From Nymphaea colorata (Eukaryota > Streptophyta > Magnoliopsida > Nymphaeales > Nymphaeaceae): 64,000 bases of DNA. Where the stretch lies: positions 870,001 through 934,000 of the forward strand of contig NC_045141.1 in NCBI RefSeq assembly GCF_008831285.2, written 5' to 3'. Below, in pieces: positions 8,141 to 61,195 of this stretch (position 1 is its first letter; each line of letters starts with the position of its first letter). The translations under genes and the position numbers were made by a program. The notes below the pieces were generated by a model. That model ran no database searches, was not told where the DNA came from, and was given only the letters and a program-made list of their open reading frames with translations.

Positions 8141-8574
8141 ATTAATTCTTCCGGCCATGACATCACCAGAGGATCCACTCGTTGCAGCGCTTACAAGAGT
8201 CTTTTTCCCTTCTCTCTCTCTCTCTCCCCCCACAACTCCCATGGCCGGACCCCATTGGACCTCTCCCCAAGTGTGAAGCTATGAAGCCCAAACAGGAAAT
8301 GTATGCCCGAGCGAGAATTGGTCATGCTAACCAGTGATTTCTTTGAAACCAAGATGATCACGAGAGACATTATTAACCTGTGACTTCTTCTTCGAAGACA
8401 CCATGCACAGAGACAGAGAGAAAGCCAGAGAGAGAGCGAGGGTGAGAGAGTTGGTTGAGGAGAGAGCAATTAATTCTTCTTTCATGGCTTTAGGCCTCTG
8501 CCTCGATTACCGTTGAACCTGTTACATTCTGTCAGGCCCTGAGTCAGTAGCGAGAGAGAGAGAGAGATTCCGCC
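8141..8574 (+). promoter_or_regulatory. Proximal upstream and 5' UTR region of the formin gene
   Basis: The region before the formin ATG contains a CT run (8212-8228) and GA runs (8415-8445 and 8550-8567), features common in plant core promoters and 5' UTRs. The transcription start cannot be located from sequence alone and no convincing TATA box was assigned. Confidence 0.45.
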
Positions 8575-19663: not shown

Positions 19664-22292
<2,629 letters not shown>

Positions 22293-22389: not shown

Positions 22390-23290
22390 AAGCTTAACCC
22401 CATGCCTGAATGGGTTGTTTGAGCTTACATTGCAGGTTTAACCCCTTGCCTGCGTGGGTTTGCCAATATGAAATTCAGGTTTACCCCCCTGAGTAGGTTG
22501 CCTTGACTTGCATCGCAAATTTATATCCTTACCTGTGTGGGTGGCATTGGCTTGCAGTGTAGGTTTAACCTCTTTACCTGTGTGGGTTGCTTTGGCATGT
22601 AGTGCAGGTTTAACCCCTTACCTGTGTAGGTTGTTTTCGCTTGCAGTGCAGGTTTAACCCCTTTACCTACGTGGGTTGCTTTGGCTTGCAGTGCAGGTTT
22701 GACCCCTTACCTGCGTGGGTTTGCCGATATGAAATTCAGGTTTACCCCCCTGAATAGGTTGCCTTGACTTGCATCGCAAATTGATATCCTTACCTGTGTG
22801 GGTGGCATTCGCTTGTAGTGCCGGTTTACCCCTTACCTGTGTGGGTTGCTTTGGCTTGCAGTGCAGGTTTAACCCCTTTACCTGCGTGGGTTGCTTTGGC
22901 TTGTAGTGCAGGTTTGACCCCTTACCTGCGTGGGTTTGCTGATATGAAATTCAGGTTTACCCCCCTGAATAGGTTGCCTTGACTTGCATCGCAAATTTAT
23001 ATCCTTACCTGTGTGGGTGGCGTTCGCTTGCAGTGCAGGTTTACCCCTTATCTGTGTGGGTTGCTTTGGCTTGTAGTGCAGGTTTAACCCCTTTACCTGC
23101 GTGGGTTGCTTTGGCATGCAGTGCAGGTTTAACCCCTTACCTGCGAGGGTTGCTTTGGCTTGCAGTGCATGTTTAACCCCTTACCTGCATGGGTTGCTTT
23201 GGCTTGCATTGCAGGTTTAACCCCTTGCTTGCGTGGGTTGCTCTTTTGTCCATAATGTCAGGTTTTATCCCCTTCCTAAATGGGTTGCTC
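22390..23290. repeat. Higher-order minisatellite with ~44-bp monomers
   Basis: About 20 diverged copies of a roughly 44-bp unit, with core CAGGTTTAACCCCTTACCTG followed by YGTGGGTTGCTTTGGCTTG. A distinctive unit containing GATATGAAATTCAGG recurs near 22464, 22724 and 22937, so blocks of about 260 and 215 bp are themselves repeated and differ by about one monomer. It lies wholly inside the LARD-like element, next to its 3' LTR. Open frames across it (for example 22979-23176) are by-products of the repeat. Confidence 0.9.
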
Positions 23291-26090: not shown

Positions 26091-28685
26091 TGTTTGCATC
26101 TCAAAATTTTCATTGGTTTTGGAGTGCTCTAGAAAAATGAGGTTTAGTTTTGAAATAGGGAAGAAAGAGACTCGCCCGTTGGTACGAGGATCGACCGTTC
26201 CCGGTGCCTTTACCGGGGGTAATCAACCCAATTTATCATTGATGCATTTCATTTTGACTTAAACAACTTTTTGATTTTATATGTGGTGTTGAAAAATGTC
26301 GAAAGTTTGGTGTTTCAAACTTTTGAAAAGATTCTTGAAGAATCGCTTGAAAATGTGAAATATTTTGAGGAAAAAGTGGAATTAGTAAATATCATTTGAA
26401 AAGCTTGTGAAATCATTTTAAAATCACTTTAGTGTTCTCTTAAGACTTTAAGTATGTTTGAGATTTTGCTTTAATTCGGTTACCACCTATTTAGAGCTCT
26501 ATCCCCTCTTACTTAAATTCTTTTGGAGATGTGTTTGTGATCATAAATGAAATAAAGTGAGTGAGAATGCATAGATGCATTTATCCAATATGATTGGAAG
26601 AATGTAAAACATTCCTACCATAACATTTATCTAAAGTCATTCCTACCACAACATACATATAAGAATTTTGTTTTTGTAAATATCATATATATGAAGGAAA
26701 AGTTTTTAAAAATGGATTGGGATTGTAGACCTATCAAGCATGAATCCAATATTGGGTCATTACTTGGTTTGTGGTCTTAATGAAGTCAGTAAAATTTTAA
26801 AATCTTAAATGGTAAGATATTGAAAGAACGGAAAAGATGAAAGACTACATTTCAAGAGAGATATAGAAAATAAAAGAGAGAAAAAGATCTTGAAAATCAT
26901 AAAATCATATGTTTTTAAAGGAAGAGAGATACATATTCATACACATAATTTATATATATATATATATATATATACATATATGAAATCTTGTAAAAATGAG
27001 GTTTAAAACAAATAGAGAAGAGAAGATCGTTTTAGAAAGAGAGAGATTTAAAATGGAATACATGTACATATATTCATATATACATATACGAGAGTTTGTA
27101 AAAGTATGATAAATCATCAAGAAAGAATAATAAAGAAAAATATTCATGTGCACACATACGTATATAATATGTATATACACATATGTCTTCATGCGTATTA
27201 AAATCAAGAAATGAATTGAAAATAGCCGACTTCAATTTTTGATATAGGCCGGAGGGAAACTTGGGCTCATGCAAGAACCTAAGTTGAGTCTCCAAGGCCG
27301 TATTAGAGAAGTTTCTTTTAAAAATTTTTTGGAAAATATGATTCATATCTAAACATGGAATGTTATGATTTAGTTTGCCACAAGGGATATATTTCTTCCA
27401 CCATTGGGTATGGAAGAAAAGCAAGCAATATAACGAGACACTCGTTAGGGTTCCTAATGGGGTGATTAGAAAAGAAACTAGCGTAAAATGACATGCAAAT
27501 GCATATTAACATGTACATATTTCGTGAAGGTTTTCCCGGGTTGGACAAGTCCCAACCTCAAAAATCACAAGGAGAAATCACAACCCCAAACACTCACTCT
27601 CATCGTGCATTGGCTCATATAAATGGAAGATTAGAATATCATGCATGAGCATCATTTCAAACATGAATGATGAATGAAGACAATATATCAAGTATATTTT
27701 TGGAGATAAATGAAGATATGGATTTTGTTTGTCTTGCTCATACTCCCGGTGTACTCAAGAGTAGCTCTTGATTCCGGATCATTTGAGCTATCTTGCATGG
27801 CCATGGGGAGATGACAAAAGGAAAAGGACAATATGAAAAGGAAAGATTGCATGATATAAGCATGAACATAAAATATCATCTCATTTTCTCATGCTCCCGG
27901 TGCACTTGAGCATAGCCTCTTGACTCCAAAAATAGAGATTAAAGGTTATCTCATATGGCCATGGGGAGAGGAAGAAGAGAGAAAATGATGAAATGAAAAT
28001 AGAGGTTTACATACCACGGATATGAATGATACTGGAAATGCCATGGAGAGGAGAAAATGAAAATAGAGGAAGATTAAATATCTCGAATGTGATTGATATT
28101 GGAAATAAGTCCTCTTTTGAATGATCTTGGACTTACCTTGAATGAAGCTCCCATGATGTTGAAGATGAAGAGAAATGGAAACAGGAAGAGGGAGAGAGAA
28201 AGAACTCAAGAGAAACTCTAAGTCTTCAAGTGAGAATACTCTAGAATTTCTCTCAATGCTAACTCTTGCCCAAGAGGGGGGAAGTATGAGGTATTTATAG
28301 AGTATTTTGGAGCCAAAATTTGAAATTCGAATTTAAGAGGGAAAACTTTTAAGAGCCAAAATTCGAAATTCAAATTCAAGATTTGAATTCAAGAGGGAAG
28401 AGTTTTAGAGCTAAAATTCAAAATTCGAATTTAGGATTTGAATTCAAGAGGGAAGAGTTTTAGAGCTAAAATTTGAAATTTGAATTCAAGATTTGAATCC
28501 GAAAGGAATGAGTTTTGGAGCCAAAATTCAAAATTTGAATTCGGCTTTAGAATTTGAGTTTGGAATTCTCAATTTGGATCTAAACTTGGATTTTGGATCT
28601 AAATTTGGATTTAAAATTTATTTTAAAAATAATAGGACCAAAATTTTAATAGCCCCCTTTTTTTGAAAAATTTGGGGTGATTACA
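26091..28685 (-). repeat. 5' LTR of the LARD-like element (2,595 bp)
   Basis: Begins TGTTTGCATC and ends GGGGTGATTACA on the + strand, so has the canonical TG...CA ends. It aligns along its whole length with the left LTR, so both derive from one insertion event. Confidence 0.9.
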
Positions 28686-34560: not shown

Positions 34561-36727
34561 TTTCGCTGGCAGTCTGTTTTTCCAGTCTCCAGTATAAGTA
34601 ACTTTTTATACAAACCCACTCCCCCCACCTCCCTCCACAACCCTCGGATTTTCTTCCCGAATTAATTTCTCTTTCCTTCCCTCTAAAAATTTCTCTGTGC
34701 ATTGTCGAAGGTTTCCATCCTCTTTCTTGTGGGGATTGCCGGTAGTAGATTCCGGCGATCATGCTTTTCTCTGGTAAGTGTTCTCTTCCTCCTTCCATTG
34801 TTGCTGCGTAGGAAGCTGAAGAGCCTGCCGGCTTCACCTGTGCCATTGAGGTTAATGAAAGGGAGCACCGGCGAGCCCTCCTATTCTCACTCTCAGGCTA
34901 TGGCTTGCCCTTTTAGGGTTCTAAAATTTCCCCTTCGTTGATTGTGGGAACGCCCAACTGATCCTCTTCTAGCTGGTCGACCAGCAGGAGCGATGGAGGA
35001 AGGCTTAGCTTCCTCATCCACTGGTTCCGGCTTCTTGCAGTCGGATTCAGGGTGATCGGTGGAGGGAGGTAGAGCAGCGGATGATGCAGATGGAGGCGAG
35101 GCAAACAGCTGCGAAGGCGTAGGCTAACCACCCGCTCTTGGCTGCCGACGCCAAGATGTGGGAGATAATGGAAGCCAAGTGTTTGTTGAAATCTTTGAGA
35201 GCGGATGAGAGCGGAGTGTGGGTGCAGGTGCCGAAGTGGCACATTTCAAAAAATTTAGTTGCGGTGGTGGTGAAGAGAAGGTATTTTGTTATTATTATTA
35301 TTATTATTAATTTATTATTATATTATAAAATAAGAATATATATATTATTATTACAATTTAGTTATCAATGTATATAAACATAGTTGCATAATTGTATTAC
35401 ATAAGAAAATACCATAACAACATATATTATATATATTATATTATATATAGTAATTTAGTAACATGACATACTAACGGTCTAACATAAAACATAAAAATTG
35501 ATAGAATCATAGAAGTAGAAATTGAAAATTTGAAATTAAAACTTTAAAAGAACAAGACAATATAAGCTTAGATTATATATTATAAGTTTATAAGATGACA
35601 ATATATCACTATATCACTTGCAAAGTATATATGCACGACTGTATATATACACGACTGACAATATATATTTGTTAGTTGAACTTTGAAACTTTTATAAGAG
35701 ATTCAAAAACAACTCAACAAGCATCTAAAATAAAATGCTAAAAATGTATATAACAATAGTACCAAAAGATGAGACACATTTAGACCGAACGCGGGTTGAC
35801 CACACCTGACTTGAGTTTGACATGAGTCAGGTGTGTGTCAAAAATGGACAAATATAGTCTGGTGCACCTGAGATTCACGTTGACTGGGTTCAGGTGTGAG
35901 TCGGAGCCGCACCCATGTCTGGTGCACATGCGACTCGGGTGCAGTAGTAAAATAAAAGAGTCCGTGTGACTTAGATTGAAATGTGTCAATGAACATTTAA
36001 TCATTCCTTCACAATGGTCGAGCAAGCATGCTTTAGATTGTAGACTTTTCAGGCTATGTTATTTTGATGTGTTCCTCTTCCTGTTAACGTTTCTTTTGAT
36101 CTTTCATACTTCTTGTTCTCTTGCAAATCGAGGCTACTTTGGGGCATCAGATAAGTTGAAGGTTTTTAATTCCCGCTAGAATTTGTCATCATATATCAGT
36201 GTGCTATTGGTTTGGGCCCATTGCTGCTTCTTAAAGTATCCAAAATTCTCCTTGCAGAACTAAATTCTACAGGTCCGTAAAGGAGAGCCACCTGAACATC
36301 ATGGAACCTAATGTATGGTGAACACCGATTAGAGAACCACCAAGTGAAAACAGAAGACCAAAGTTCCTCCTTCTGTCAAAAAAGGTGTCTCCTCTAAGAT
36401 CAAAGAGTAGAGGGTCTTTTACTAAGTCCACGGATTTCAAATTCTGAGTATTCAAGACTTGTTCAGATCAGAGGTAATCGAACACCTTTGTAAAAAACGG
36501 CTTGCTAGCATCCTTGGCTTGTAATCAAGGACAATGTTTCTTAGGAAGTTCCGGTATTAGGTAAACTTGTGAAGTTGAAAACTGATTTTTCCGCAGGTTT
36601 AACTTCAAGTCTTACGTCCAAAATAAGAGTGCAGTCGCAGAAGAAAATGAGTTCCAGCCAAAAAATGTGGCACTCAATTTATGGCACAAAGGAACCATCT
36701 CCGACCAGCAAAATCACCGCTTTTTTG
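34561..36727. other. Possible CACTA interior with an unidentified coding-like fragment
   Basis: Between the two candidate CACTA ends, 34690-35290 is GC-richer and gene-like. One + strand frame includes DAKMWEIMEAKCLLKSLRAD and then WVQVPKWHISKNLVAVVVKR (about 35140-35280). I do not recognise it, and stops precede it. The rest is AT-rich, with (ATT)n at 35288-35330 and a GT/CAGGTG-rich patch at 35780-35945. Nothing further is supported. Confidence 0.3.
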
Positions 36728-37109
36728 TAGGGCTGAAAACGAGCCGAGTCGAGCCCGATCAGCTCGACTAAGTAAGACACGAGCTCGACTCGGCTTGAAC
36801 TCGAATATAGCTCACCTATCCTGACTCGAACTCGACTCGATAGTCACTTGTCGAGCTCAAGCATTAAGCTCGATAAGCTCGTTTAAAGTATACTCATCCT
36901 TGTTGAGCTCGAGCTCGATTAACTCGTTTGGTACTCATCCTTATCGAGCTCGATTAACTCGTTACCAAGGAAATCAAATGTTCCATTAATGTTTATCCTC
37001 ATAATTATTTTTTGCCTACGATTTCCTGAAAAAACTTCAACTTAAAAAAATAATAATAATAAGAGGTCCTATTTGAGTTGACAAAATTAAACATCATAGG
37101 GGTTGGGAG

Positions 37110-37849
37110 TCAGATCTTGTGAACATTATATATTTTCCTATTTGCAGCTAATGGAAACTGTTGTTGTTGTTGCTGTTGTTGTTGGACAACACTTTGTTGT
37201 TGCTCTGGGATCTGCTTTTGGAGTTGCAAACTTTGTTGCAGAAGAGAAGATTGGAGGGGATTCTGATTGGAAAGAAGTAATTGCTGCTGGTTCACTCCAA
37301 GCAATTGCTGCTGTTGCAGTTTAGACTGGATGAGATTCTGTTGCAGCAGCTGGTTTTGTAGCTGAGATTGTGTCAATGGTTGACTGATAAGGCACTGAAG
37401 AGCTGCTTGTGACACTTGTTGTTGTTGCTGCTGCTGCAGCTGTTGTTGCTGTTGCTGCAGTTGTTGACCAGCGATTCCTGGTTTCTGTGTCTGTGTGAAG
37501 GGGTTTGCCAAAGTCCTATTTTGCTGTTGAAGACTATCTAGTTGTTGAGTTTGCTGCTGCAAGTTGGGTAGTCCAAACTGCAGGTTAGATAATGGTAGGA
37601 CATGGCCCTGAAGGGCTAATTGCTTTGAAGGATCATCCACACCAACATTATGTAATTGTGATGGTGTCATGGAGGGAAAACAGTCAGCTTGAATAACCGA
37701 ACCAAGAATCTGGAGGTTCTGCTGCATATTCATCCACTGAACCAAACTCATACCATGTTGTATTGGGTTTTGAACATCTTTGATGCCAATATCATCAGTA
37801 AGCCAAGGCATTGCATTTTTAAAGGCATTCTCTATCTCTGACTCTTCAC
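37110..37849 (-). pseudogene. Auxin response factor middle-region exon fragment (ARF7/19-like)
   Basis: ARFs are nuclear transcription factors that bind auxin response elements; activating members have a Gln-rich middle region. After a plausible acceptor (TTCTTCAG, - strand, at 37850) the frame reads GEESEIENAFKNAMPWLTDD, then IGIKDVQNPIQHGMSLVQWMNMQQ. It continues into long Gln-rich stretches (for example LQQQQQQLQQQQQQQ and QSQLQNQLLQQN) and stops at 37110. The SLVQWMNMQQ signature and Gln content match the activating ARF7/19-type middle region. The DNA-binding B3 domain and the C-terminal PB1 domain are missing, and the frame ends soon after the last Gln run. It is therefore a gene fragment, apparently captured by the surrounding hAT-like element. 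The Gln-rich frame itself is unbroken. Confidence 0.8.
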
Positions 37850-38363
37850 CTGAAGAAAAGTAAGAGATCATGGTTATAAACGATTTCCAAGAAGCCTCAC
37901 AACATCTCAAATTCAAGATAGACCATCAAATATTCATCGGCAACATAACTGGAATGAGGGTTAAGATCCTCAAAAATGTGGAAGCAACAAAAGATTAAAG
38001 AACTTTACACACATAAAAAAACAAAGGAAAGGCTATGTAGTAATCCTAAGTTCCTAACCTTGGATTATAGATCACAGTGACAGGACTAATTAAGCAAGCA
38101 TAACAAGCAAAGACAAAAAGAACCATAAAACCAGATTGAAAAGGGACAATGCATCGATTGAAAGGAGAACCTGGCATTCATAAACAGGTCAGGGAACAAC
38201 AAAGTACAAAGCAAATAAACAGTCGTTCTCTCTTTATCGGCACTTGTATAATGGTTTTACATCATGATAGATCCAACTGGACGAACATACAATTGACAGG
38301 AGGCGAGGTCACAAAGAAAGGATCAAGGAACCCTGATAACCGAATCGAACCTTGTGACTAATG

Positions 38364-38888
38364 CTACTTCTTGTTAGTGCCCTTATTGCCTCCCGCATTC
38401 CCGGATGCTGCTGCTTCTCCCCCCCGCAGCTTTCTTCGCCGCCTTCTCCTGGAGCGCCTTGGCATCCAGGGGGGACACGACGCCAACACCAACCAAAAGG
38501 GAACCATCAATCAAACGAAATAAAGTATATTATAATAGAGAAGACGAACACATCGCAACCATTATCACCATCTTAAAAAAAAACGAAAAACCAACTCACT
38601 CCAAAAACCTAAATACCCAAAATGCAGAAACAAAACAAGAACGAGTCCACACACAAGCAATCAAAGATTCAAAAGCACAACCCAGTTCACAAGACCAGCT
38701 CCCGCACCATGAGCAATTGAAGAAAGCCATTAACAGATGAAAACAAGAGCAAAAATGGGATAAGGGACAAAGGAGAAGATTACCTTTCCCTTCTCTGTTC
38801 CGGAGTCAACCCATCATCTCCGCCCTTCCCCTTGGGGTTCCTTGCCTGAGCCCTCTCCAGATCTCGCTCTCTCTGGTTTCCCCGTGGG
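38364..38888 (-). pseudogene. 4F5/SERF-like small protein gene fragment, two exons
   Basis: The 4F5 (small EDRK-rich factor) family are tiny basic proteins. On the - strand, exon 38888-38784 encodes RGNQRERDLERAQAR then NPKGKGGDDGLTPEQRRER and ends at a good donor (G|GTAATC). The next exon, 38467-38364, encodes DAKALQEKAAKKAA, and in a shifted frame AAASGNAGGNKGTNKK plus stop. Two lesions are visible. The expected AG acceptor before GGATGCC is absent (the sequence reads CCCCCCT). One extra G in a G run shifts the frame after KKAA. The first coding residues should lie in a small upstream exon that I could not find. CT-rich sequence (- strand) further upstream to about 39540 looks like the gene's own leader. 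Confidence 0.8.
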
Positions 38889-39580
38889 CTATCTCGTCAA
38901 GGTAAAGCACATCTCAATCACAAAACCAATAAACAGTGAAGAAAAAGAGGGGATAAAATATCAATAAAGGCATGTCTTGAGACGCAGAAACGGCATTAGA
39001 TTCTCACAAAAAATACACGAAAAACACGGATTATTGGGGTTTTGAATAGAAGATCGCCGAAGGAAACAGGTATTCCCACGATTACTTTTTCCGACACAAA
39101 CTACCATCGAGCAAATAAACACTAAAAAGGAGAAGACATTTAAAATATTCTCAGTTTATCAAGGATATGAGTCATTCTGGTATCGTCGCCGGGAGGAAGA
39201 AACGACGACTCCGCCTGTCAGCAACAAACCAAAAGATCGTGACCAATGGAAAAGAAAAGGGTTCCAAAGATCATCACACCAACGGATCAGAAAATATGCC
39301 AATGATGGTCTTCCTCCTAAGATCGAGCAACTGATTTCTTTTTCTTCCTCAGGAAACAAACAGAGAGAGAGAGCGCGAGGGAGAGACCTGGAAGTGCAGA
39401 CGTCGGAGACGGGAGAACTAGAGAAGAGAAGGTGAAGTCGGAGAGACCGAGAGGCAAGAGAGGGAGAGTCGGAGTCGGAGAGAGCTCAGAGAGGGAGAAG
39501 TGAGAACGAAAAAAAGAAAGTAGGAAACCCTAAATTCTCGAAAAGAGTTTCCCGCTTTCTCATTTGAACCGGTTTTAAAA
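38889..39580 (-). promoter_or_regulatory. Probable captured 5' region of the SERF-like gene
   Basis: On the - strand the sequence upstream of the SERF exon contains an intron-like stretch and then a dense CT-rich block (39360-39540), as in many plant 5' UTRs. This would place a host promoter or leader inside the hAT-like element, pointing toward the SERF and ARF fragments. No start site is assignable. Confidence 0.4.
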
Positions 39581-39932
39581 AAACCGGTTCATTAACTAAT
39601 CGAACCGAGGCGAGCTGTAACCACTCAAATGAACTCGAACTGGACTCGATTAGTTAAACGAGTCGACTCGTCAACTCGAGCTCGACTCGTTTAACTAAAT
39701 AAGCAGCTTGAATGTGCTTACGAGTCGAGCTCGAGTAGCCCGACTCTTTGTGCAGCCCATATTGCATGAAGGTATTCTTTCCCAACGTGGAAGAATTTTT
39801 TCTTGTGCAGATAATAGGCAAAGAAACTGTGGCAAGGTTGGAGCTGCAGCATCCTTTCAGCTGTTATAAAGGAGGAACATTCTGGTCTTTGCTGAGGACA
39901 ACAACATGTACGGGTGATAATATCTAGTGGGG

Positions 39933-40070
39933 TCAAGTCTTCACTTCGTCTATTGAAGAAGAATTGCAAGCAGGGGATTTGTGTGCGATTATATGACAAT
40001 GGACCTCAAATGTGGTACCACAGTCATTGCAGAGTATCCACATCATCTTGTTTTGGTACATTTCAGGCAT
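39933..40070 (-). pseudogene. Zinc-ribbon end of a CHY/RING-type E3 ubiquitin ligase
   Basis: On the - strand the frame reads MPEMYQNKMMWILCNDCGTT, then FEVHCHIIAHKSPACNSSS. This matches the zinc-ribbon module at the C-terminus of RCHY1/MIEL1-type CHY and RING finger ligases (ILCNDC ... HIxxHKCxxC). One zinc ligand is lost (HKSPAC instead of HKCPxC), and the following conserved Asn-Thr-Arg segment is out of frame. A hAT element is inserted 31 bp upstream and another hAT-like element lies about 170 bp downstream. I did not find the CHY or RING exons in the window, so I call it a pseudogene remnant. Confidence 0.7.
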
Positions 40071-40092
40071 GCTTATTATTGGCATTATCTTT

Positions 40093-40100
40093 CCTGCTTT
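40093..40100. repeat. Left 8-bp target site duplication (CCTGCTTT)
   Basis: Identical to 42801-42808 on the other side of the hAT element. An 8-bp duplication is the hAT superfamily signature. Confidence 0.9.
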
Positions 40101-41099
40101 TAGGGAAGTCAACGGATCAGATTCGGATTGGATATCCATTCGAAATGCCTTTAAAAATTTGGATATAGTAAGCAATTTAACATCCGAATAAGAAAATCAG
40201 ATTGGATTCAGATTTAAGAAATAACATCCAATCGGATTCGGTTTTAAGTAAATATCCGATGGATACTCAACCATCTTATCCGATCGGATACGAATTCAGA
40301 TTCAGTTTTAAGTAAATATCTGATCAGATACTTAACCGTATATCCAAATCCTGAGTTGATATCTGAATCTGAATTACATCTTGATATCTGAATCCAAATC
40401 ACGAGTTGATATCCGAATCTGAACCACGAGTTGATATCCAAATCCAAAATGCAAGTGTTGAAATCCGAATCCGAACCTTGAGTTGGTGTTCCCACGTTTT
40501 GAAGTTGAGACTATGAATGGTTGGGCAAAATGGCTAACCAAACACACCAACTTAAAGTTCTGATTGAATAAAAATATGAGTTGTATATGAAGGTATAATC
40601 TGATTAAGAGGTAATGTTTTCCATAAACTTACATATAATAATAGTCAAATAGTTACCATATACAACATTTAACTTAAAGTATTCAAAACTATATCACATA
40701 AAACTAATTAATTAATAATTCATATAATATTTAATTAAACATTTTTTTGTAAACAAGCAAACTATTATAATTAAGACATCAACTAAACAAGATTTCTTAA
40801 ATAATGTATTTATTTAATTAAAATAATAAAAAAACTTGTATTAAGAAATTTCAATAAAATGAGCGTTTTTAAAAATATGAAAATTAACCGTTAATAAATA
40901 TATTTAATATGAAACAACTAGTAACTCATAAAAAAGTTTCATTTATTAAACTATCAATTATTTATTTAATTAATCAAGTAAATTATTTTGTATAATCATA
41001 TAATATGTCCAAAAGTCTTAAATATTTGATATACAAAACATAATTCACAAATTTAAAAACAAAAACCTTTAACTAGTAAGAAAACAATAAATTGTTTGA

Positions 41100-50600: not shown

Positions 50601-51806
50601 TTTTTAGCAGAGATCAAGTGGCCTACTAGGGACGATTTCAACTAGTCCTCTGCTCTGCTCAAGTAGGGAAGGAGCCGGGATATTATCGGCACCTACCTCT
50701 TCTCTTGCAGCCGGAGTCGTGCGCTTGGGTACTAGGCGACTAGAGCCACGAGTCGCTCTCCTCCAAGCCTTCCCGATTATCTTCTCCTGCCTCTAACTCC
50801 TTCCGGGGATGAAGAAGTTGCACTGTAAGAAGATGGCGATTCAGTCGGGGAATTATGCGTAGGATGAAGTAACTCCAAGAGAAATTCCGGTAGCCTCGAG
50901 GAATGTCTACAAGCTTGTTTTGCTTCAACCAGAGCCACCGGTTGGAGCCTTTGGATTCCGATCACCGGCGGTAAGACGATGAAGGGAAGAGAGAGGCAAG
51001 AGCCAATTCACACGAAAAACTCAACTTCTAATTCTTGATTGCATAATGAAAAAAGACTTACAAAAGAGTTTAAGTACTTGAAATAAAACCGGTTCTTAAC
51101 ATGAGAACCGAGACACTTGCTGAAATGAAACGACTCAACTATAAAGCAAAAGCATAAAAGGAGACCGAGACGAGACGTCTCGAATGTTTAGTGAGTTTGG
51201 CCTCTCCCTCATGGGTTCAGCCATATAACTTGCCTAAGTTAGGCCTTAGGCTTGCCACGTGTGGACTGGGTCAGGACTAGACTCAGGGTTCGAAATCGCT
51301 ATAACCGGATCTAGGTCTAGTTCCCGTGCCTATTCTGCCTTGAAGTCTTCAGCCCGCTGCCCGCGCTCCGCTGATGATGCTCCGCCCACACCGCCCGCTA
51401 CATCAACTTCAAGTTCTATGTTAGCCTCCCTTAGCTCATCATTGCTTTTCATCATGTTGGCCGATGGTGCTTGACTCTCTTGGCCTTGCTGGCCCTAGTT
51501 CTCGGCCTCCTGGTGGGAAGGTTTGCATCAGATGCCACCCAAAGCCTTTATTTCAATGAGAATAGAACAAAATACAAAAAAAGATGGGAATGTATAAAAT
51601 TTACAAACTAGAAGACATTGTGTCTTTCTATACTAAAAAAGTTAGCCTCTTGAAACTCAAAATGACCTTGTCTGAAAAGAATTACAGCAGAAACAACTTA
51701 ATGTCTCCACTTGCTTGGACCTGGAGCAAGACCAATTTTCCCTTGAGTTATCCTGCTACTTGTAACAAAACTGCTAAGGAATTGCTGGGCATTCCATGCT
51801 TGATTG
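47642..51806. other. Unclassified repetitive-looking region
   Basis: No known domain. Composition is more GC-rich at 48400-51540, with purine-rich prose-like sequence at 49260-49940 and many short frames on both strands. The segment about 50990-51110, with ATAATGAAAAAAGACTTACAA, resembles the transcript-end part of a copia-type LTR read on the - strand, so an uncharacterised LTR element may lie here. I could not find matching ends. Confidence 0.35.
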
Positions 51807-52197
51807 TTGTACACTCGGCATCAACACAATCAGCTCCAAGATTGTCGCTGTAAAAGATAATGCCCATGTCAACAAGACTGCAGCTGAAGGAGATCACGCT
51901 CATATCAGATCCAAAATTATAGCTACAAGAGATCACATCCATACCAAAGATAACATTGATCTATGTATAGCAACAGAAAAAAGGGAAACATGTGATTCTG
52001 TAATTAAATCAAACCCCAAGAAATGTGGGACTGACAAATGTGAAAATTGACTATAAAATCAAATCTCTTGTCTTGTAAAAAAAAATTAATAAGAAAAAGA
52101 TATTTCCTTTCGTGGATGTAGACCAAAGGTTGAACCACGTTAAAACATTGTTGTTCTCTCTCTTAAGTTTTTCTTCTCCTTGGTGTGTGGTTTTGTA
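51807..52197 (+). repeat. 5' LTR of copia element A
   Basis: Similar over its length to 59366-59782, from CACTCGGCATCAACACAATC to TCTCCTTGGTGTGTGGTTTTG. The 3' copy is longer because of an extra repeat of about 27 bp around AACAAGACTGCAGCTG. Confidence 0.8.
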
Positions 52198-52210
52198 TGG
52201 TATCAGAGCC
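52198..52210 (+). promoter_or_regulatory. Primer binding site of element A (tRNA-iMet)
   Basis: TGGTATCAGAGCC lies directly after the LTR, the usual copia primer site complementary to the 3' end of initiator methionine tRNA. Confidence 0.9.
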
Positions 52211-52223
52211 AAGTTATTCATAA

Positions 52224-52618
52224 ATGGCACCAACAGTCAAACCCATACAAAATAAACCTACACTCCCCTTAGTCATCACCATGCCTCCCCAAACCATACC
52301 ACATCCACCAAACTGTCCCTCAATCAAAACCGTGCTACATCCACCAAATATTATATCACCCCTAGCACCCGATCTCTCAACTCAACCAACCTCTCCAATT
52401 CATTCACCTTCTACCATGATCTCCCCTATCCAAGATACAAAAACAGCCACCACCGAACCCTCCACCTCCTCCAACATTCTCAAACCACACCGATCTCATA
52501 CCATGCTCACTCGATCCCAAACTGGCTCTCTAAAACCCAAAACTTATACGATCTCCAAATATCCTCTCCCTAAATCTCATTTCGCCCATCTAACCATTGA
52601 AACCGAACCTCATACTAC
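52224..52618 (+). pseudogene. Element A pol fragment: linker before reverse transcriptase
   Basis: The frame opens with ATG only 14 bp after the primer site and encodes a Pro/Thr/Ser-rich stretch ending HRSHTMLTRSQTGSLKPK then THFAHL-like sequence. HxMxTRxKxGxxKP is the conserved stretch just before the copia RT domain, so a deletion has joined the leader to the middle of pol. It is cut by element B at 52619 and resumes at 57895 with [20 protein letters not shown]. Confidence 0.75.
52614..52618. repeat. Left 5-bp target duplication of element B (ACTAC)
   Basis: Identical to 57890-57894. A 5-bp duplication is typical of LTR retrotransposon integration. Confidence 0.9.
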
Positions 52619-52950
52619 TATGAAAAGTGACTATAACAGTCACAAAAGATGCATATAACAATAAAGGCACTAAGGCCAAGTGGAGAAGAAACTCATTCAA
52701 TAAAATATATGAAGGCTGTAAAACACAGCTTGCCTTATACAAGAGATTGCTTGGATATTTATACAAGAGACAAAGAAGAAGAAGAGGGTAAAGATAGAGA
52801 GGGTTCTAGCCGTTGGGAGTTCCAACCTCCAACGACTAGATGCAAAAAGGAAATAAAAAAAATAAGGGAAAAAAGAAGAAAATAAAATGTAAAACCTACC
52901 TAAGCTAAAAACCTAATTATAATATTACTAAGAAATCTTATTTCTTAACA
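52619..52950 (-). repeat. 3' LTR of copia element B
   Basis: Highly similar to 57553-57889. Its outer end has lost the terminal TG (TATGAAAAG versus TGTGAAAAA). The adjoining - strand sequence TTTCGGGAAGA is the probable polypurine tract. Confidence 0.92.
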
Positions 52951-54993
52951 TCTTCCCGAAAGTTTATCTAAAAAAAAATTGAATCTAGGAGAACATAAAG
53001 GCTTTGTGAAGAAATCAGCTAGTTGAAACTTGGAGGAGACATATGGAAGCTTGATAATCTTCTTAAAAAATTCTTCACGAACATAGTGACAATCCATCTC
53101 TATATGCTTTATTCGTTCATGGAATGTTTGATTCTTGACAATGTAGATAGAACTCTTGTTGTTGCAGCACAAATCAGTGGGTTCTTAAATTCTTGTTCCC
53201 ATATCAATGAGCATTTGATGAAGCTAGATAATTTCCACAGTTGTAGTAGCCATGACTCGATATTCAGCTTCAGTAGAGGATAGAGAGACTTTCTGTTGTT
53301 TTTTGCACTTCCATAAGATGAGTGATTCCCCTAAAAAAAACACAAAATCCAGTAGTTGAGTGTCTATCATTTGAATCTCCTCTCCAATCAACATCAGTAT
53401 AAGCAATCAAGTTTAAGGAGGAAGAGGAAGACATAAATACTCCCTTATTTATTGTTCTCTTAATGTATCTAATGATACGAAGAATAACTCCCATATGAAC
53501 TGTTGATGCAACATGTTGAAATTGACTCATAGTATCAACTGCATGAGCAAGGTCAGGCCGAGTGATGCTAAGATACATTAAGGAACCCACAAGCTGTCGG
53601 TAAGGAGTGAGATTCGTAAGTGGAACTCCATCATCAATCTTCATTTTGTTTCCTACTGCTTCATGAGTTTCTGTGGCCTTATAATCTATAATGCCTGATT
53701 TAGCAATGATCTCTACAACAAACTTAGTTTGTGATAAAAAATAGCCTCTAGTGGAGTATGCAACCTGAATACCCAAGAAAAATGTTATAAAACCTAAATC
53801 TTTCATTTCAAAAAGTTTTTTGTAGTAATCTCTTGCATTCTTTAATACCTTCTTTATCACTACCTGTAATGATCATGTCATCAACATATAGTAGGAGGAT
53901 TATGATACATGCAGTAGTGTTCTTAACAAACAAGGTAGTGTCAGTTAAACATGAATGAAATCCATAATAAAAAATAATAATGAAAACGGTCAAACCAAGC
54001 TTTAGGAGCTTGTTTGAGGCCATAAAAAGCTTTCTTAAGTCTAAGAACTTTTCATGTAGTAGTGTTCTTAACAAACAAGGCAGTGTCAGTTAAACATGAA
54101 TGAAATCCATAATAAAAAATAATAGTGAAAACGGTCAAACCAAGCTTTAGGAGCTTGTTTGAGGCCATAAAAAGCTTTCTTAAGTCTAAGAACTTTTCCT
54201 TGTGGAATAGACAAACCAGGTGATACTTTCATATAAACTTCTTCCATAAGATTTCCATTAAAAAGATATTTTTAACATCCATTTGATAGATGTTCCAGTT
54301 TTTAATAGATGCTAAAGAAAAAGGAGTCATAACAGTAGTCATTCTAGTTACAGGGGCAAAAGTTTTCTCATACTCAATGTCATATTCTTGTATATAACCT
54401 TTTGCAACAAGCTTCACCTTATATCTTTCTAGAGATCCATCACTTCTAGTCTTCACCTTGTATACTCATTTGCATCCAATAGTCTTTTTTTCTATAGGTA
54501 AATCTTGTATTTCCCAAGTTTGGGCTTTCTTCAAGGCATCTAATTCTTCTTTCATGGCATCTTTCCACTCAATATATTTGGAGACTTCATTAAAAGTGGA
54601 AGGTTCAAGGTGAGAGTGAATGACATTAATTCTTGCTCTATGTGTTGGAGTAAAAGTTTCATATGACACAAACCTATTAGGTTGTCTTATATTTCTAGTG
54701 GATCTTCTAAGGTTTTCTTCACTTGAGGTTGGTTGGGGATTGATAGTCTCATGATGTTCTTCTTCATCAATATCTTGTTGGTGGTTTCTTTTTTGATATG
54801 TGATTATGTCCTTGGCTACTTTGCCATCACTATTGTCATCAATATTACAATCATCAATGTCATGCATTTCATCATCACATTGAGAGAGATACTTAAATAA
54901 AAAGGAATATTCATTGTCGTGTTGTGACTCTTCACAACTTTTAAATCCACTTTCATCTTCACAAAACTTTACATTCCTTGAGACTATGATCAT
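52951..54993 (-). pseudogene. Element B reverse transcriptase and RNase H
   Basis: Reading from 54993 down: the linker RRSTRNIRQPNRF, then the RT start WKDAMKEELDALKKAQTWEI. A TGG-to-TGA stop follows IGCK, then VYKVKTRSDGSLERYKVKL and VAKGYIQEYDIEYEKTFAP. After a 145-bp tandem duplication come LLLYVDDMIITG (YVDD at 53888-53877), MKDLGFITFFLGIQVAY and TPYRQLVGSLMYLSITRPDL. RNase H is seen as YTDVDWRGDSNDRHSTTGFC, SLSSTEAEYRVMA and FHERIKHIEMDCHYVREEFF. The core YVDD is intact, but stops, frameshifts and the duplication prevent a full product. Confidence 0.9.
53913..54197. repeat. 145-bp tandem duplication inside element B RT
   Basis: Sequence starting AGTAGTGTTCTTAACAAAC at 53913 recurs at 54058 nearly unchanged. 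As 145 is not a multiple of three, it shifts the RT frame. The near identity implies a recent event relative to the element's other damage. Confidence 0.9.
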
Positions 54994-55045
54994 GTCTTTG
55001 ACTGGGTCATAACATTTGTAGCCTTTTTGAGTTTCAGAGTAACAC

Positions 55046-56038
55046 TTAGTTTGTCAGTCTTGTCATTAAGAACAAAACATTTGCATCCAAAAATAGAAAG
55101 TCTATTGAATCGGGTTCATACTTGAATAACTTTTCAAATGAGATTGTACTATTTAAAACTTTTGAAGGCGTTCTGTTTATGAGATAAACAGAAGCAAGGG
55201 CTGTTTTTGCCCAAAAGTTCTTAGGCACATTTTTTGTAATAAGAAGAGTTCTTGTTGTTTCAATTATGTGCCTATGTTTTCTTTCAGAAAGTCTAGTTTG
55301 TTGATGTGTTCTTGGAAATGATTTTTGATGGACTATTCTATAGTTTTTCAAATATCTCTTGAACTCATTTGAAATATATTCACCCCAGAATCAGTCCTTA
55401 AAATTTTTAATTTAGCATTGAACTGTGTTTGTACCAACATGTAAAAGTTTTGAATATTTCAAAAACTTTGGATTTATATCTTAGGAAATATATCTAAAAT
55501 ACCTAGTGAAGTCATCAACAAAGATCACATAATATGATAGCCCTCCTTTTGACATGATAGGAGATGGTCCCCATACATCAGAATGAACAAGCTCAAAAGG
55601 TAAATAAGAGAAGAAGTTTCTTTGTCCGAAAGATAAGGATTTCATTTTTTCATGTATACAATCATTACATTTAAAGTTCTCAATACAAATATCCTTGGTA
55701 GGACTCATCATAGACAATTTTCTAATGTTTGGATGACCTAATCTTTGGTGCCAAATATTGATGTTCACATTTTCGACATAGTGACAAAACTTTTCTTTAA
55801 GGATACATAAATTGTCTATGTAGTAAAGGCCTCCTTTTCTAAAACCTTCTCCAATCAATCTCCCGGTTTGATGATTCTGCAACAAACATTTATTTGGTGA
55901 GAAAACTATGTGAAAACCAAGATATGAGATTTGTGCCATGAAGTAAGTTAAGATTAAGTCTAGGGACATAACTAACTTTTGGAACAAAAAATTTTTGTTT
56001 TCCAAAATCTTTTTCAAAATTCTGAATCCCTTTAACAC
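55046..56038 (-). pseudogene. Element B integrase
   Basis: The zinc-binding HHCC module is seen as WHQRLGHPNIRKL followed by CNDCIHEKM. The catalytic core begins PFELVHSDVWGPSPIMSKGG and continues YYVIFVDDFTRYF. After a break near 55480 it resumes with QTRLSERKHRHIIETTRTLL, then FWAKTALASVYLINRTPSK. The order and motifs match copia integrase. Frame changes around 55350-55480 and near 55046 interrupt it. Confidence 0.88.
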
Positions 56039-57383
56039 TCAAAGAAGTTCCATCAGTGCTAACTACGTTTAATTCTTTTCTTGTTTGTTCAAAATTGTTC
56101 AAAGATGATATATTTGATGTCATATGAAAAGATGCACCAAAATCTAAAAACCAAGAAAACATATCGGAAGTGTTGGAGATGGATGCCGTTGTTGCTAGTG
56201 CTCCGGAATATGACTCATTGATCATGGGTTGAAGGGCCGTCATGATTTGATTCAACGTTGTGGAGATCGATGAACGATCACATCCTTCATTTGCAACATT
56301 TGCAGCCTTTCTTTGATCAAATTGTCTATTGTTGTATTGTCCACCTTGGGGATATGAAATTCCCCAGTTGTATTGCCCTCCTTGAGGATATGAAGTTCCT
56401 CCTTTGAGAAAATTTCCTCCAAGATTTCGTGATTGTCCTTCATTGTTGTTCAACTTAGGACAACTAGGTCATATGTGACCGGGATTATGACAAAAGAAGA
56501 AAACAACTTTATATTCTCATCTATTTTTATTCTTAAAGTGAGGTCTAAAAGATTTGATGTTGTTTCCGGGTCTAGAGGCTGCTAAGACTGTTTCTACTTC
56601 TTGTTTTGAAAAAAGAACACTATCTTTATCCATTTCTCTGGATAGTTTCATTCTAGTTTCTTCTCCACTTAGCTTTGTAAGGAGTTCATGAATGGGTGGA
56701 GGAAAGGCTAAGGAAAGAAGGGCTGACCTTATTTGTTCAAATTCGGGTTGTAGCCCTTGAAGAAATATTGAAAAAACCTAAATTCATTAACTTCAATTCT
56801 TCTAATCTCATGGCACTTGCAATCTATCCTTAGTTCGGGACTAAGTTGATCTAGCTCATTTCATTACACTAGAGATTTTCATAAAATATTCTCTAACATT
56901 TTTCTCTCCTTGTTTGGTACTTTAGGCTTTTTGAATCAAAAGATACTTTCGGGCCATATCTTTTTGGGTAAACATTCCTTTGAGATATTCTCAAACTTCA
57001 CTAGCTTTTTCATAATACATAAGATTTTGGGCAATCCTAGGTTCAATACTTCCATAAATTCATTCTTTGATCCTAGAATTCTTGGCTTCCCAATCGCCTA
57101 ATTTTTTGTAATATTCATTCATGGCATTTTGTCTTTCCTCTCCATCTAGTTGTTTCTCAATCTCATTTTCAACTTTGGTTAACTTAGGAGAATGAGGGAT
57201 AGACGTACCTCTTATGAAGCCCCATAAATATTTTCCTTTGATATGCATCTCCAAACATTTCATCCATAACATACAATTGGTTCCATCAAGCTTGTAGGGA
57301 GCATAATAACTTCCTCCTTCAATTGAAACTTTGGAGTCCTCCATGAGAGCAATATTTGAAACAATAATCTCCAAGGAAGTCAA
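56039..57383 (-). pseudogene. Element B gag and protease
   Basis: Gag begins near 57343 (MEDSKVSIEGGSYYAPYKLD) and continues CMLWMKCLEMHIKGKYLWGF, a copia gag start. In-frame TGA stops replace Trp in KE-W-IYGS and SEV-W-EYL. The zinc knuckle near 56490-56450 is damaged (CHNPGHI, stop, PSC, first Cys missing). The protease motif reads LDFGASFHMT in place of LDSGASFHMT (about 56138-56110), losing the active-site Ser of D-S/T-G. The product would be inactive. Confidence 0.85.
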
Positions 57384-57540
57384 GAAGAAATTCTTCTAGG
57401 AGTTTCACCAAACAGTTGGTGAGCAACCATTGCAATAGCCTTCAAAGGATGATATCCACCAGCCAAAAAATTTCTTCAACTAACCAGCAACTCAAAATAA
57501 CAGCAACAACCTTTAATAAGCTTCAAGAATCAGCCCAATG

Positions 57541-57552
57541 GCTCTGATACCA
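57541..57552 (-). promoter_or_regulatory. Primer binding site of element B (tRNA-iMet)
   Basis: GCTCTGATACCA on the + strand is the reverse of TGGTATCAGAGC and abuts the right-hand LTR, fixing the element's - orientation. Confidence 0.92.
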
Positions 57553-57889
57553 TGTGAAAAATGACTATAACAGTAACAAAAGATGCATATAACAATAAAA
57601 AGGCACTAAGGCCAAGTGGAGAAGAATGAAACTCATTCAATAAAATATATGAAGGCTGTAAAACACAGCTTGCCTTATACAAGAGATTGCTTGAGTATTT
57701 ATACAAGAGACAAGGAAGAAGAAGGGGGTAAAAAGAGAGAGGGTTCTAGCCATTGGGAGTTCCAACGGCTAGATTAAAAGGGCAAAAAGAAAATAAAAAA
57801 ATAAGGAAAAAAAGAAGAAAATAAAATGTAAAACCTGCCTAAGCTAAAAACCTAGTTATAATATCACTAAGAAATCTTATTTCTTAACA
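57553..57889 (-). repeat. 5' LTR of copia element B
   Basis: TGTGAAAAA ... TTTCTTAACA on the + strand, with intact TG...CA ends, next to the primer site. Confidence 0.93.
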
Positions 57890-57894
57890 ACTAC
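57890..57894. repeat. Right 5-bp target duplication of element B (ACTAC)
   Basis: Exact copy of 52614-52618. Confidence 0.9.
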
Positions 57895-59365
57895 GTCCCA
57901 AGCCTTGAAACATATTCAGTGGGTTCAAGCCATGAAAGATGAACTTGCAGCTCTACACAAACAATCACACAAGAGACTCTTGTTCCTCCGCCTCCCTCTA
58001 CTAATATTATTGGTTCGAAATGGGTTTTTCGCATCAAAAGGAAAGTTGATGGCATGCTTGAAAGATACAAGGCTCACTTAGTTGCCAAGGGCTATACTCA
58101 AGAACATGGTATTGACTACTTTGAAACCTTCGATCCAGTTGTCAAACATACTTCTATATAGGTTTTTCTCACAATTGCCCTCACCTTTGGTTGGACTGTT
58201 CGACAACTTGATGTTCACAATGCTTTCCTTCATGGCATTCTCACTGAAAAAGTATACATGGCTCAACCACCGGGTTTCATCGATCACTGTTTCCCTCATC
58301 ATATTTGTTAGTTGCATAAGGCTATCTATGGTTTAAAACCTCTCTTTTTATGAGGTTGCGGCAAGATTCAATATTATATATTTTAATCTATGTTGACGAC
58401 ATCATTATTACAGGCAATAATGATACTATGATTCAGTCTATTATTCACAATCTAGATCAAGGGTTTGGCATCAAAGACCTTGGACTCCTGCACTATTTTT
58501 TGGGCATACAAGCAACGTTCTCGTCCAAAGGTCTGTTTCTTTCTCAAGAAAAATATATGCTTGATCTTCTCCAAAAAGCAAATATGGTTGATGCAAAACC
58601 TCACTTGACGCCTATGTCGACCACTTTTAAGCTATCAAAACATGCTGGGAAGCCCTTATTAAATTCCACTCCTTATCGACAACTTGTTGGCGCACTGCAA
58701 TATCTTACGCTTACATGGCCCAATCTCTCTTTTGCTGTTAACAAAGTGTGTCAGTACATGCAGCATCCTACCACTTTCCATATGACTGCAGTCAAATGTA
58801 TTTTACGTTATGTTAAGGCCACATTATCTTGCAGTCTTCTTTTAAAACCAGCCACCAAATTTCAAATTGATGCTTACATTGATGCAGACTGGGCTGGTAA
58901 TATTGATGATCGAAAGTCTATTGGAGGATTTGCCATTTTTTTTGGGTTCATACCTTGTCTCTTGGTCTGCTTGCAAACAGCTTACTGTTACTCAATCAAG
59001 CACCAAAGCTGAATATCATACTCTAGCATCCTATTCCTCTGAGGTTTTATGGCTCATGTTTTTACTTAGGAATTAAACTTCACTATGCTGCATGTTCCCT
59101 GTTTGTGGTGTGATAAGATCAGTGTTGCCTCTCTCTCCAGCAATCATGTATTTCATAATAGGACAAAACATATTGAGATCAATGTTCATTTTGTTCGAGA
59201 TCACATCGCCAAGAATCATCTTCAAGTACACTATATTCTTAGTGCTAATTAGCTGGCAGACATCCTCACAAAACCTCTTGCTCAACCTACTTTTGACAAC
59301 CTTGGATTCAAGCTAAATGCTCTTTCCCAAGTGTTCATCTTGTGGGGGGATAATAAACCACAACA
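57895..59365 (+). pseudogene. Element A reverse transcriptase and RNase H
   Basis: RT starts [20 protein letters not shown]. After a frameshift it reads [19 protein letters not shown]-like sequence, [20 protein letters not shown], a stop, then [20 protein letters not shown]. From 58350 an open frame contains ILIYVDDIIITG (YVDD 58389-58400), LGLLHYFLGIQATFSSKGLF, STPYRQLVGALQYLTL and the RNase H start IDADWAGNIDDRKSIGGFA. A frameshift near 58950 leads to WSACKQLTVTQSSTKAEYH. The C-terminal part degenerates before the purine tract TTGTGGGGGGA (59339-59350). It is broken, though the RT catalytic motif survives. Confidence 0.88.
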
Positions 59366-59782
59366 TGGTGCACTCGGCATCAACACAATCAGCTCTAAGA
59401 TTGTCGTTGGAAGAGATAACGTCCATGTCAACAAGACTGCAGCTGATACCAACCATGCCGACAAGACTACAGCTGGAGGAGATCACGCTCATATCAGATC
59501 CAAAATTATAGCTACAAAAGATCACATCCATATCAAAGATAGCGTTGATCTATGTATAGCAATAGAAAAAGGGAAAACATGTGATTTTGTAATTAAATCA
59601 AACCCCAAGAAATGTGGGACTGATAAACGTACAATTGGTTATAAAATCAAATCTCGTCTTGTAAAAAAATTAACAAGAAAGAGATATTTCCTTTCATGGA
59701 CATAGACCAAATGGTCGAACCACGTTAAAACATTGTTGTTCTCTCTCTTAAGTTTTTCTTCTCCTTGGCGTGTGGTTTTGTA
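59366..59782 (+). repeat. 3' LTR of copia element A
   Basis: Counterpart of 51807-52197 with an internal duplication of about 27 bp (GACAAGACTACAGCTGG after AACAAGACTGCAGCTG). The exact right end is uncertain by two bases (TA or TACA). Confidence 0.8.
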
Positions 59783-60257
59783 CATATCTTACCACTGTCT
59801 AGATATACAAACTTTTGCCACCTTTTCTGACCAAGCAAACTATTGAGGAAGGCTCCACGACCTCTCCACGAATAAAGGAGCAGTTCCTGTGCATGTTCTC
59901 ACGATAATGAGAGGAGCAATTACAATACATGACACCAAAACTAGTGGAACCACCACCATTACTGGTACCAAGATGGTTGACGAGAAGAAAGGGAACAAAG
60001 AGTTTGGAGAACGTGGCCAAAATGAAAATCTGGAAAACAAACCTGTCATGCCTCTTTGTTGTAACTAAAACTTGAACTGCTGTGGTTGTGGTAAACAGTT
60101 AAATGCGACCACTCTTGCTCACTGTAAACAATGAGAGAGATATAAATTTTGAGTGAGCAAAGACTCCTATGAGGATGTAGCTTTAAGACGAACCTCATTA
60201 AATTTCTTATGTTGTGTGAATTTTATCATTGGTAGTGCCATTAATCCTGTCTTTTTA
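59783..60257. other. Sequence between elements A and C, probably including the LTR of C
   Basis: A primer site follows directly at 60258, so an LTR should end here, but its start cannot be placed because the partner LTR lies outside the window. Confidence 0.45.
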
Positions 60258-60268
60258 TGGTATCAGAG
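60258..60268 (+). promoter_or_regulatory. Primer binding site of copia element C (tRNA-iMet)
   Basis: TGGTATCAGAG precedes a copia gag by a few bases, marking the left end of the interior of a third copia element. Confidence 0.85.
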
Positions 60269-60277
60269 GCCAGTGAG

Positions 60278-61195
60278 CTGTTCCCTTCTCGTGGCATCTC
60301 CAAGCTCATCATCATCATCCACAAGATCTCCTGATTCAACACAAACGGGTATGGATGTCTCTCAAGCTCTTTTGCAGTCACCCAATAGCCTTCAATAATT
60401 TCTCTCAACTCAGCTGAATGGAGGAAGCTATCATTTGTGGGAGTCTTAGTTCACTCCCATTTTACTTATGATCTTATGGGTTTGGTAGACGTTAACCACC
60501 CTACTTCTCCAGGAAAAAGGAGTGGTACTAATGAGATAAACCCTGAATACCGTGAATGTTTGAGGCATCACCAACTCTTGGTCAGCTGGATTTTATCATC
60601 ACTTACAGAAAATGTGCATGGTCAGATCATGGACTAAAAATGTCTTATGACTGGCAAACCTTAAAATAGTCTTATGCTGCTCACTCTCATTTGAGAGTGA
60701 TGCAACTTAAATTTCAATTTCATGACATGAAGAAAGGTCACAAGACTATTGATGAATATATTCAGCGAGTGAACTCTCTAGCTTATCAGCTTGCTATTGC
60801 CTGAAGACCAGTTCCTGAGGGAGACCTAGTTATACAAATACTTAGAGGTCTTCCACCATAATATATGGCATTCAGGACTTCCATTGAAACTCGACCTGAT
60901 CTTGTATCTCTTAGTGAGCTTCATAGCATGCTGCTCATTCAGGAAGCACACTTCAATGAAAATGATTATCAAAGTTACTTAATTTCAGCCAACTCTGTTG
61001 TGAATCCAACAATGGCAAAGGTCAAAATCAATATTATCATAATAACAGTAATATAAACCAGAGTTACAACAAGTTAAAATATCAAAAGAGTTGGAGGAAA
61101 GGGTCTGGTCAGAATAGTTGTGACAAACCAATATGTCAGATCTGTGAAAAAATCAGTCATGCAGTGAAGACGTGCTATAGGTTCACAATCTATTG
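60278..61195 (+). pseudogene. Element C gag
   Basis: The frame starts near 60293 (MASPSSSSSSTRSPDSTQT). Damaged copies of the copia gag domain follow: HDMKKGHKTIDEYIQRVNSL, LAYQLAIA, a stop, then GDLVIQILRGLPP and TRPDLVSLSELHSMLLIQE. The CCHC zinc knuckle is seen as CQICEKISHAVKTC (61134-61175), with the usual GH changed to SH. Several stops interrupt gag (around 60398, 60450, 60636, 60801 and 60858). Confidence 0.8.

Follow-up and report, generated by a model that had tools for sequence, protein, structure and literature searches.

Host DNA of ARF and SERF genes in a non-autonomous hAT-family element of Nymphaea colorata

Structure of the element and its captured DNA

The analyzed stretch of Nymphaea colorata DNA (contig NC_045141.1, positions 870,001 to 934,000; 64,000 nt, referred to below as the window and numbered from its first letter) contains at 36728-39759 an element of the hAT family, with the left terminus TAGGGCTG at 36728 and the right terminus CAGCCCA at 39753-39759. 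Between the ends lie fragments of an auxin response factor (ARF) gene and of a SERF/4F5 gene, both read on the minus strand. BLAST comparison with donor and related loci gave the order of parts as left end (36728 to about 37142), two ARF pieces (37140-37970 and 37965-38088), SERF (38087-39394), and right end (39395-39759). The features of the locus are as follows.

36372-36727, no strand assigned: left flank, 75% identical as far as base 36727 to the paralogous site L054, with which it is colinear
36728-37142, plus strand: left end of the hAT element, with TAGGGCTG as its terminus, subterminal repeats rich in CGAGC as far as about 36965, and additional sequence common to other left ends
37140-37849, minus strand: captured ARF middle-region Gln-rich exon, shortened, with an open frame; 96.5% identical to L009 (C11) by BLAST
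37850-37970, minus strand: captured ARF intron next to the Gln-rich exon, with its 3' splice site; 5 differences in 121 bp (4.1%)
37965-38088, minus strand: second ARF piece, exon tail and intron; 96% identical to L009 3364-3241 by BLAST
38087-39394, minus strand: captured SERF/4F5 segment with 5' part, exon 1, intron, exon 2, and 3' flank; 90.8% identical to L010 (C3) by BLAST
about 38892-38784 (exon 1) and about 38467-38364 (exon 2), minus strand: SERF coding parts, from a three-way alignment with C3 and C10
39395-39759, minus strand: right end of the hAT element, with a degenerate terminus, subterminal repeats, and a CT-rich leader; aligned with 10 other right ends
39779-40070, minus strand: right flank, colinear with L054, 82% identity in 39779-39945 and 92% in 39959-40070

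The feature is a non-autonomous Pack-hAT (Pack-TYPE) element carrying ARF and SERF host DNA, and the capture is real. As a query against the whole genome (408 Mb), 36728-39759 retrieved itself and then separate matches for each part (C11, C3, C10, and end-only loci), with many loci matching the left end or the right end alone. The fragments come from two unrelated genes and share one orientation, as had been proposed in an earlier reading of the letters of the window (hereafter the original prediction); their donors are on C11 and C3. No homology to the ARF or SERF donor locus was found beyond 36728-39759 by BLAST with the query 36001-40500; since donor homology ends inside the element on both sides, fragments extending outside it were rejected. 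Left ends of the loci L012-L016 are 79-85% identical to that of the window, and the similarity stops at 37142-37150. The word TAGGGCTG or its complement occurs elsewhere in the window (47426 and 44165), with no CGAGC-rich repeats after either.

The ARF donor locus on C11 holds an ARF_AD domain (5.5e-26). The predicted exon at 37849-37110 was correctly assigned to ARF and incorrectly delimited, the ARF DNA being larger (37140-38088) and including an intron and a second piece. The two pieces correspond to donor positions 3241-3364 and 4428-5273 and are joined across approximately 1.06 kb of donor DNA missing from the element, with homologies that overlap by 6 bp. The frame of the Gln-rich exon is open for 271 codons, stop to stop, in agreement with what had been predicted. 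Comparison with the donor revealed 9 nonsynonymous and 3 synonymous changed codons among the 235 compared, against a neutral site ratio of 3.9:1, and thus no constraint was detected on the captured exon.

The SERF donor locus on C3 holds a SERF-like_N domain (5.7e-11). The predicted two-exon SERF gene with a CT-rich leader was upheld for the exons; the leader is not part of it, since the DNA beyond 39394 is the transposon's own end, and the copy is broken, its start reading ATA and its exon-2 acceptor CCCTGG versus CCAGGG in C3. As the SERF homology covers both exons and intron, it points to copying from genomic DNA; a retro-copy of a spliced mRNA was rejected, introns being present in both the ARF and the SERF copies. 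Shared by the window, C3, and C10 is what we take to be a 2-bp insertion after the SERF start, judged against the SERF N-terminus as we presume it to be. This common insertion argues for C3 or its lineage as the donor. At C3 (L010 4722-4830) it would put the ATG out of the SERF reading frame. Of the parents sought, donor loci were located for both genes, that of SERF with a seemingly out-of-frame start. The C3 locus would thus seem to differ from a normal, undamaged SERF gene, and may be a pseudogene or have an alternative start. Among the scored candidates of the DNA genome search, SERF matches were observed at C3 and C10 only, and no protein-query search for other functional SERF genes was made.

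Sister elements, insertion site and capture history

The genome search revealed on C10 a 95% match to the SERF DNA of the window, with both element ends beside it. This C10 element (L011) is 3557 bp long, has the termini TAGGGCTG and CAGCCCTA, and is bordered on both sides by a perfect 8-bp target duplication, CAAGCCTA, which bears out the predicted hAT-like element with paired ends at 36728-39759. Both termini together with an 8-bp target duplication were found in 8 of the 15 loci examined, six of these duplications being perfect and two having a single mismatch, the elements ranging from 3.3 to 8.0 kb in length; the duplication was not found at the window copy and six other loci of the 15 within the stretches examined. 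Short terminal inverted repeats are present in the sister elements (TAGGGCTG combined with CAGCCCTA or CACCCCTA). The interiors of the elements vary, with interior blocks common only to some pairs.

A genome search with the left flank identified a paralogous site without the element (L054, C4:24.76 Mb) that matches both flanks. The joint in this site reads ...CTTTTTGAATACATGAAGG, and its equivalent in the window reads ...CTTTTTTG, followed by the element and then by TATTGCATGAAGG. Two points weigh against a simple insertion here. First, L054 is imperfect as an empty site, with approximately 0.2 kb of extra DNA just past the joint before the right-flank match resumes. Second, no target-site duplication accompanies the window copy, the right terminus of which is degenerate, and hence the insertion of this copy has to be argued from the paralogous site and the sibling. 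The window copy is best read as a single insertion, the target duplication of which would later have been lost on the right side. Adjoining the element, a zinc_ribbon_6 gene remnant (PF14599, 4.6e-11) was found in 39760-40140 on the minus strand; its paralog lies at C4:24.76 Mb.

The lack of a target-site duplication at the window copy would also agree with two ends from unrelated elements, the genes between them reflecting an old local rearrangement. We consider this extremely improbable, since C10 and seven further loci hold both end types with matching 8-bp duplications, an element-free paralogous site is colinear with both flanks, and the ARF and SERF donors reside on other chromosomes. 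Neither of the two findings that the original prediction had set against a capture, namely gene remnants continuing outside the element and unrelated ends, was encountered.

The cargo of L011 includes glutamate dehydrogenase (GDH) DNA (three pieces from C2, 91-96% identical), one ARF piece (91%, donor 4020-4152), and two SERF pieces (92 and 88%), with GDH, ARF, and SERF all oriented as in the window. Bases 319-655 of this element, approximately 0.3 kb near its left end, match C6:8470174-8470572 at 78%. Substitution divergence in the SERF block is 4.4% between the window and C10, 6.0% between the window and C3, and 7.9% between C10 and C3. The window and C10 blocks being mutually closest, both elements would descend from a common ancestor carrying the capture. 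With a sibling that matches the window copy in its ends and its SERF block and holds a piece from the one ARF gene, it is probable from these comparisons that ARF and SERF were taken up once, in an ancestral element. The noncoding divergence of ARF from its donor is lower (3.4-4.1% in the window, 5.5% in C10), which is compatible with a capture of ARF later than that of SERF.

The ARF-SERF joints differ between the window and C10, and their ARF pieces do not overlap; a single ancestral capture is for this reason inferred and not seen. Both facts would fit an independent capture of ARF and SERF from the same donors by two related elements, as would an ARF noncoding divergence in the window below the 6.0% of its SERF block. 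Nonetheless, independent capture is improbable: two unrelated donors would have become adjacent in both elements with identical order and orientation, and the SERF blocks of the window and C10, which resemble each other more than either resembles C3, both hold stretches absent from C3. In the favored history, a single ancestral element would have taken up ARF and SERF, with GDH added before or after the split, and would then have moved, its descendants each losing different internal segments. The abrupt joints, with 0-11 bp of overlap, suggest template switching or gap repair as the probable route by which the element acquired host DNA.

Transposase-bearing relatives and the right end

Same-ended copies, the search for which the original prediction had proposed, were found as the C10 sibling, the sister elements, and at least 40 main places matching the right end. 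Of these 40 right ends, 8 have a hAT dimerisation domain (PF05699) located 4.26-4.74 kb inward. All eight transposases read inward from the right end, which places this end on the 5' side of the transposase gene. Scored candidates numbered 150 of 1113 in the transposase search and 40 of 545 in the right-end search; the pairing used 40 of 54 right-end matches (14 shorter secondary ones being dropped) and 147 of 150 transposase matches (three on small contigs being dropped). The number of inward pairs expected by chance is approximately 0.14 at the scored density and approximately 1 if all 1113 first-look candidates are counted, and chance pairing would leave the distance and strand of the transposase unfixed. 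The eight ends with a transposase may include duplicates of one another (two are on C16, and those on C3 and C13 have identical distances). Three right ends on C3 (L020, L021, and L022) have the same outer flank and seem to have been multiplied by segmental duplication, not by transposition.

Two relatives were read in part. From its right end inward, L043 shows zf-BED (3.8e-5), hAT-like_RNase-H (3.4e-30), and Dimer_Tnp_hAT (1.4e-17), in frames broken by stops, and L040 shows Dimer_Tnp_hAT (6.5e-27) and hAT-like_RNase-H (1.3e-9); their transposases are 85-87% identical over two of three pieces. A window-type left end in L040 (79%) lies on the 3' side of its transposase gene. Two observations weigh against the reading as a whole: two further transposase matches lie outward of right ends, within 10 kb, and no locus was read with both ends and transposase, the left end of L043 and the right end of L040 not being found within the stretches examined. 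We therefore infer the union of left and right ends in one autonomous element from the two loci taken together.

Membership in the hAT superfamily follows from the 8-bp target duplication (8 of 15 loci), the hAT transposase in relatives with the same ends, and the short terminal inverted repeats. The Pack-TYPE character is evident from identifiable host DNA (ARF from C11 and SERF from C3 in the window, GDH from C2 in the sibling), from transposition together with cargo, the same SERF block lying inside elements on C4 and C10, and from a search of 9 Pack elements with three L043 transposase pieces, in which tblastn gave no match at 1e-3. The duplication length alone would not exclude a Pack-MULE, for which criteria of 7-11 bp are used in the available excerpts of a published study (PMC4858842). 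Pack-MULEs take a Mutator transposase as their source; the relatives found here encode hAT transposase, and the genome was not searched with a Mutator model. Overall, a non-autonomous Pack-TYPE hAT element, presumably moved in trans by the zf-BED/hAT transposase of same-ended relatives, is very likely the correct explanation.

Alignment of 11 right ends revealed a common terminus, subterminal repeats, and a CT-rich stretch, as well as the palindrome AACCGGTT, GCGGGAA, and AGGGTTT, each of which is exact in 9 of the 11; in the window they occupy 39582-39589, 39549-39555, and 39525-39531, respectively. We take GCGGGAA to be E2F-like and AGGGTTT to be a telo-box. A putative leader splice donor, AG|GTGAG, was observed 472-489 bases from the terminus in L043, L045, L046, and L048. 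The right end would accordingly seem to keep the leader on the 5' side of the transposase gene, presumably together with the promoter. Two observations tell against such retention: each of the three words has no exact counterpart in 2 of the 11 right ends, and AG|GTGAG occurs where a leader donor is expected in no more than 4 of the 10 ends checked, the window copy lacking it.

The original prediction also envisaged a transcript running from the SERF leader into ARF, giving either a chimeric message or small RNAs. Entry from the leader is plausible from the layout, the leader itself being a transposase end and not SERF-derived. Transcription from the right end inward would pass through SERF and then ARF, both in sense, and would yield a chimeric, probably non-coding RNA in the window copy. 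A protein from ARF and SERF is unlikely here, because the SERF start and exon-2 acceptor are lost and the ARF exon is without visible constraint; a sense non-coding fusion RNA is possible. A functional chimeric gene made up of the captured pieces, or a role for them as small-RNA regulators of the ARF and SERF parents, appears quite improbable: the sense layout behind a transposase-side leader and the open ARF frame speak for it, whereas the losses in SERF and the 9:3 ratio of changes in ARF speak against it.

Direction of the cargo and comparison with known systems

The cargo direction was assessed in the interiors of 8 sister elements, excluding the window copy and open reading frames (ORFs) wholly within the ends. 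Full-frame Pfam scans with stops as X were nearly empty (a single PPR match in 8 frames), and so stop-to-stop ORFs of at least 50 codons from both strands were compared with Pfam at E 0.01. No family was found in the 97 plus-strand ORFs versus 12 in the 104 minus-strand (transposase-sense) ORFs. Three of the latter (DUF5989, FN-plug_TEN1-4, and CTE_TERT) were taken for chance matches, and PPR_2 and PPR_3 represent one PPR ORF, leaving six to eight credible host genes. Six of these match at 1.5e-5 or better (GDI, ribosomal L18A, PDS5, GDH, PPR, and RRM), and two matches, both in L046, are weaker (Tub, 7.1e-4; protein kinase, 0.0089), the kinase being no stronger than the matches labelled as chance. 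Seven of the eight genes were located, namely PPR in L039, L18A and RRM in L041, GDI in L042, PDS5 in L045, and kinase and Tub in L046; the single GDH ORF tried in this step gave no match, though the GDH donor locus does match. Apart from this symmetric test, three minus-strand ORFs picked by eye, and no others, were searched against solved structures. L039 yielded part of an ABCG/PDR transporter (8.7e-12) and L047 an LRR piece resembling ERL1 (4.6e-7); the third ORF, from L042, had no match. A separate L042 ORF gave only a weak response-regulator match (0.034).

The two-sided sign test for cargo direction gives approximately 0.03 for six genes and approximately 0.008 for eight. Its force is weakened by cargo that is shared by descent and hence not independent (the window with L011, L039 with L042, and L041 with L047). 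A sense-only cargo could accordingly be an accident of few lineages or of detection, without any mechanism: only 8 sister elements were scanned, no Pfam gene was located in L047 or L048, small exons escape detection through ORFs, and the matches of two of the eight genes are weak, with six genes (the six-gene value above) remaining at 1.5e-5 or better. Such an accident is rather unlikely in our estimation, considering that both strands were scanned alike and that, beyond the eight-gene value obtained with Tub and kinase, the ARF, SERF, and GDH donors established at the DNA level agree in sense direction.

All recognisable captured genes being in sense in the elements read, it is suggested that the direction of the cargo is imposed or selected, for example if antisense cargo were to silence essential parents or disturb the element's own RNA. 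It is possible, though doubtful, that this hAT family acts as a directional gene trap, keeping the transposase promoter and leader (with the splice donor in several copies) and holding only sense host fragments. If so, each new capture would be expressed as a sense fusion transcript, and antisense captures would be excluded or purged. The question of a random or a filtered cargo direction matters for the escape of hAT elements from silencing and for the formation of new genes. A single genome holds the donors, an element-free site, a sibling with extra cargo, sisters with other cargo, and transposase-bearing relatives, which makes both the direction bias and the order of captures directly testable with RNA data and the remaining copies.

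Several other features of the window were recorded. The stretches 20500-22200 and 27000-28600, approximately 6.4 kb apart, have closely similar ORFs and a 55-bp tandem repeat in common, which suggests a segmental duplication. A tandem array in 22394-23242 has a 44-bp unit in approximately 20 copies, with a 215-bp higher-order period. By eye, we take the plus-strand ORFs in 8551-15282 to be a formin gene with a proline-rich region and an FH2 domain, and those on both strands in 51500-63500 to be parts of several Copia-type retrotransposons.

Rice Pack-MULEs are elements with terminal inverted repeats that carry several gene fragments with introns. The window element resembles them in its cargo and differs in superfamily, its relatives encoding a hAT transposase. 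Gene capture by hAT elements is already known, and the window element is a member of the Pack-hAT kind. The distinctive part is the sense-only cargo behind a retained transposase 5' end, which rests on few elements; no report of it in a hAT family was found in the literature searched, which was available partly as excerpts and did not cover most subscription journals. The Pack-hATs described in maize and rice are, as far as the excerpted account extends, likewise non-autonomous hAT elements with 8-bp target duplications and host coding DNA, for which growth by joint mobilisation of neighbouring insertions was proposed (Gisby and Catoni 2022; PMC8903248). In contrast to the present case, orientation in that account concerns neighbouring insertions, not sense cargo behind a transposase leader. 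The excerpts on the grapevine hAT Hatvine-6, from 2008, describe a family that is similar in having common ends around interiors that vary and match exons and introns of the host, and unlike the window element in that its members are described as sharing transposase coding sequence; the opposite-orientation example given there is a CACTA element with a PPR fragment (PMC2528002). In the frog Pack-hAT hAT-N8_XT, for which the excerpted text gives a template-switching model, captured host sequence was similarly amplified to three places, with distinct target duplications; the cargo there is one 291-bp untranslated-region piece, whereas the water lily elements carry several genes in one direction (PMC8277862).

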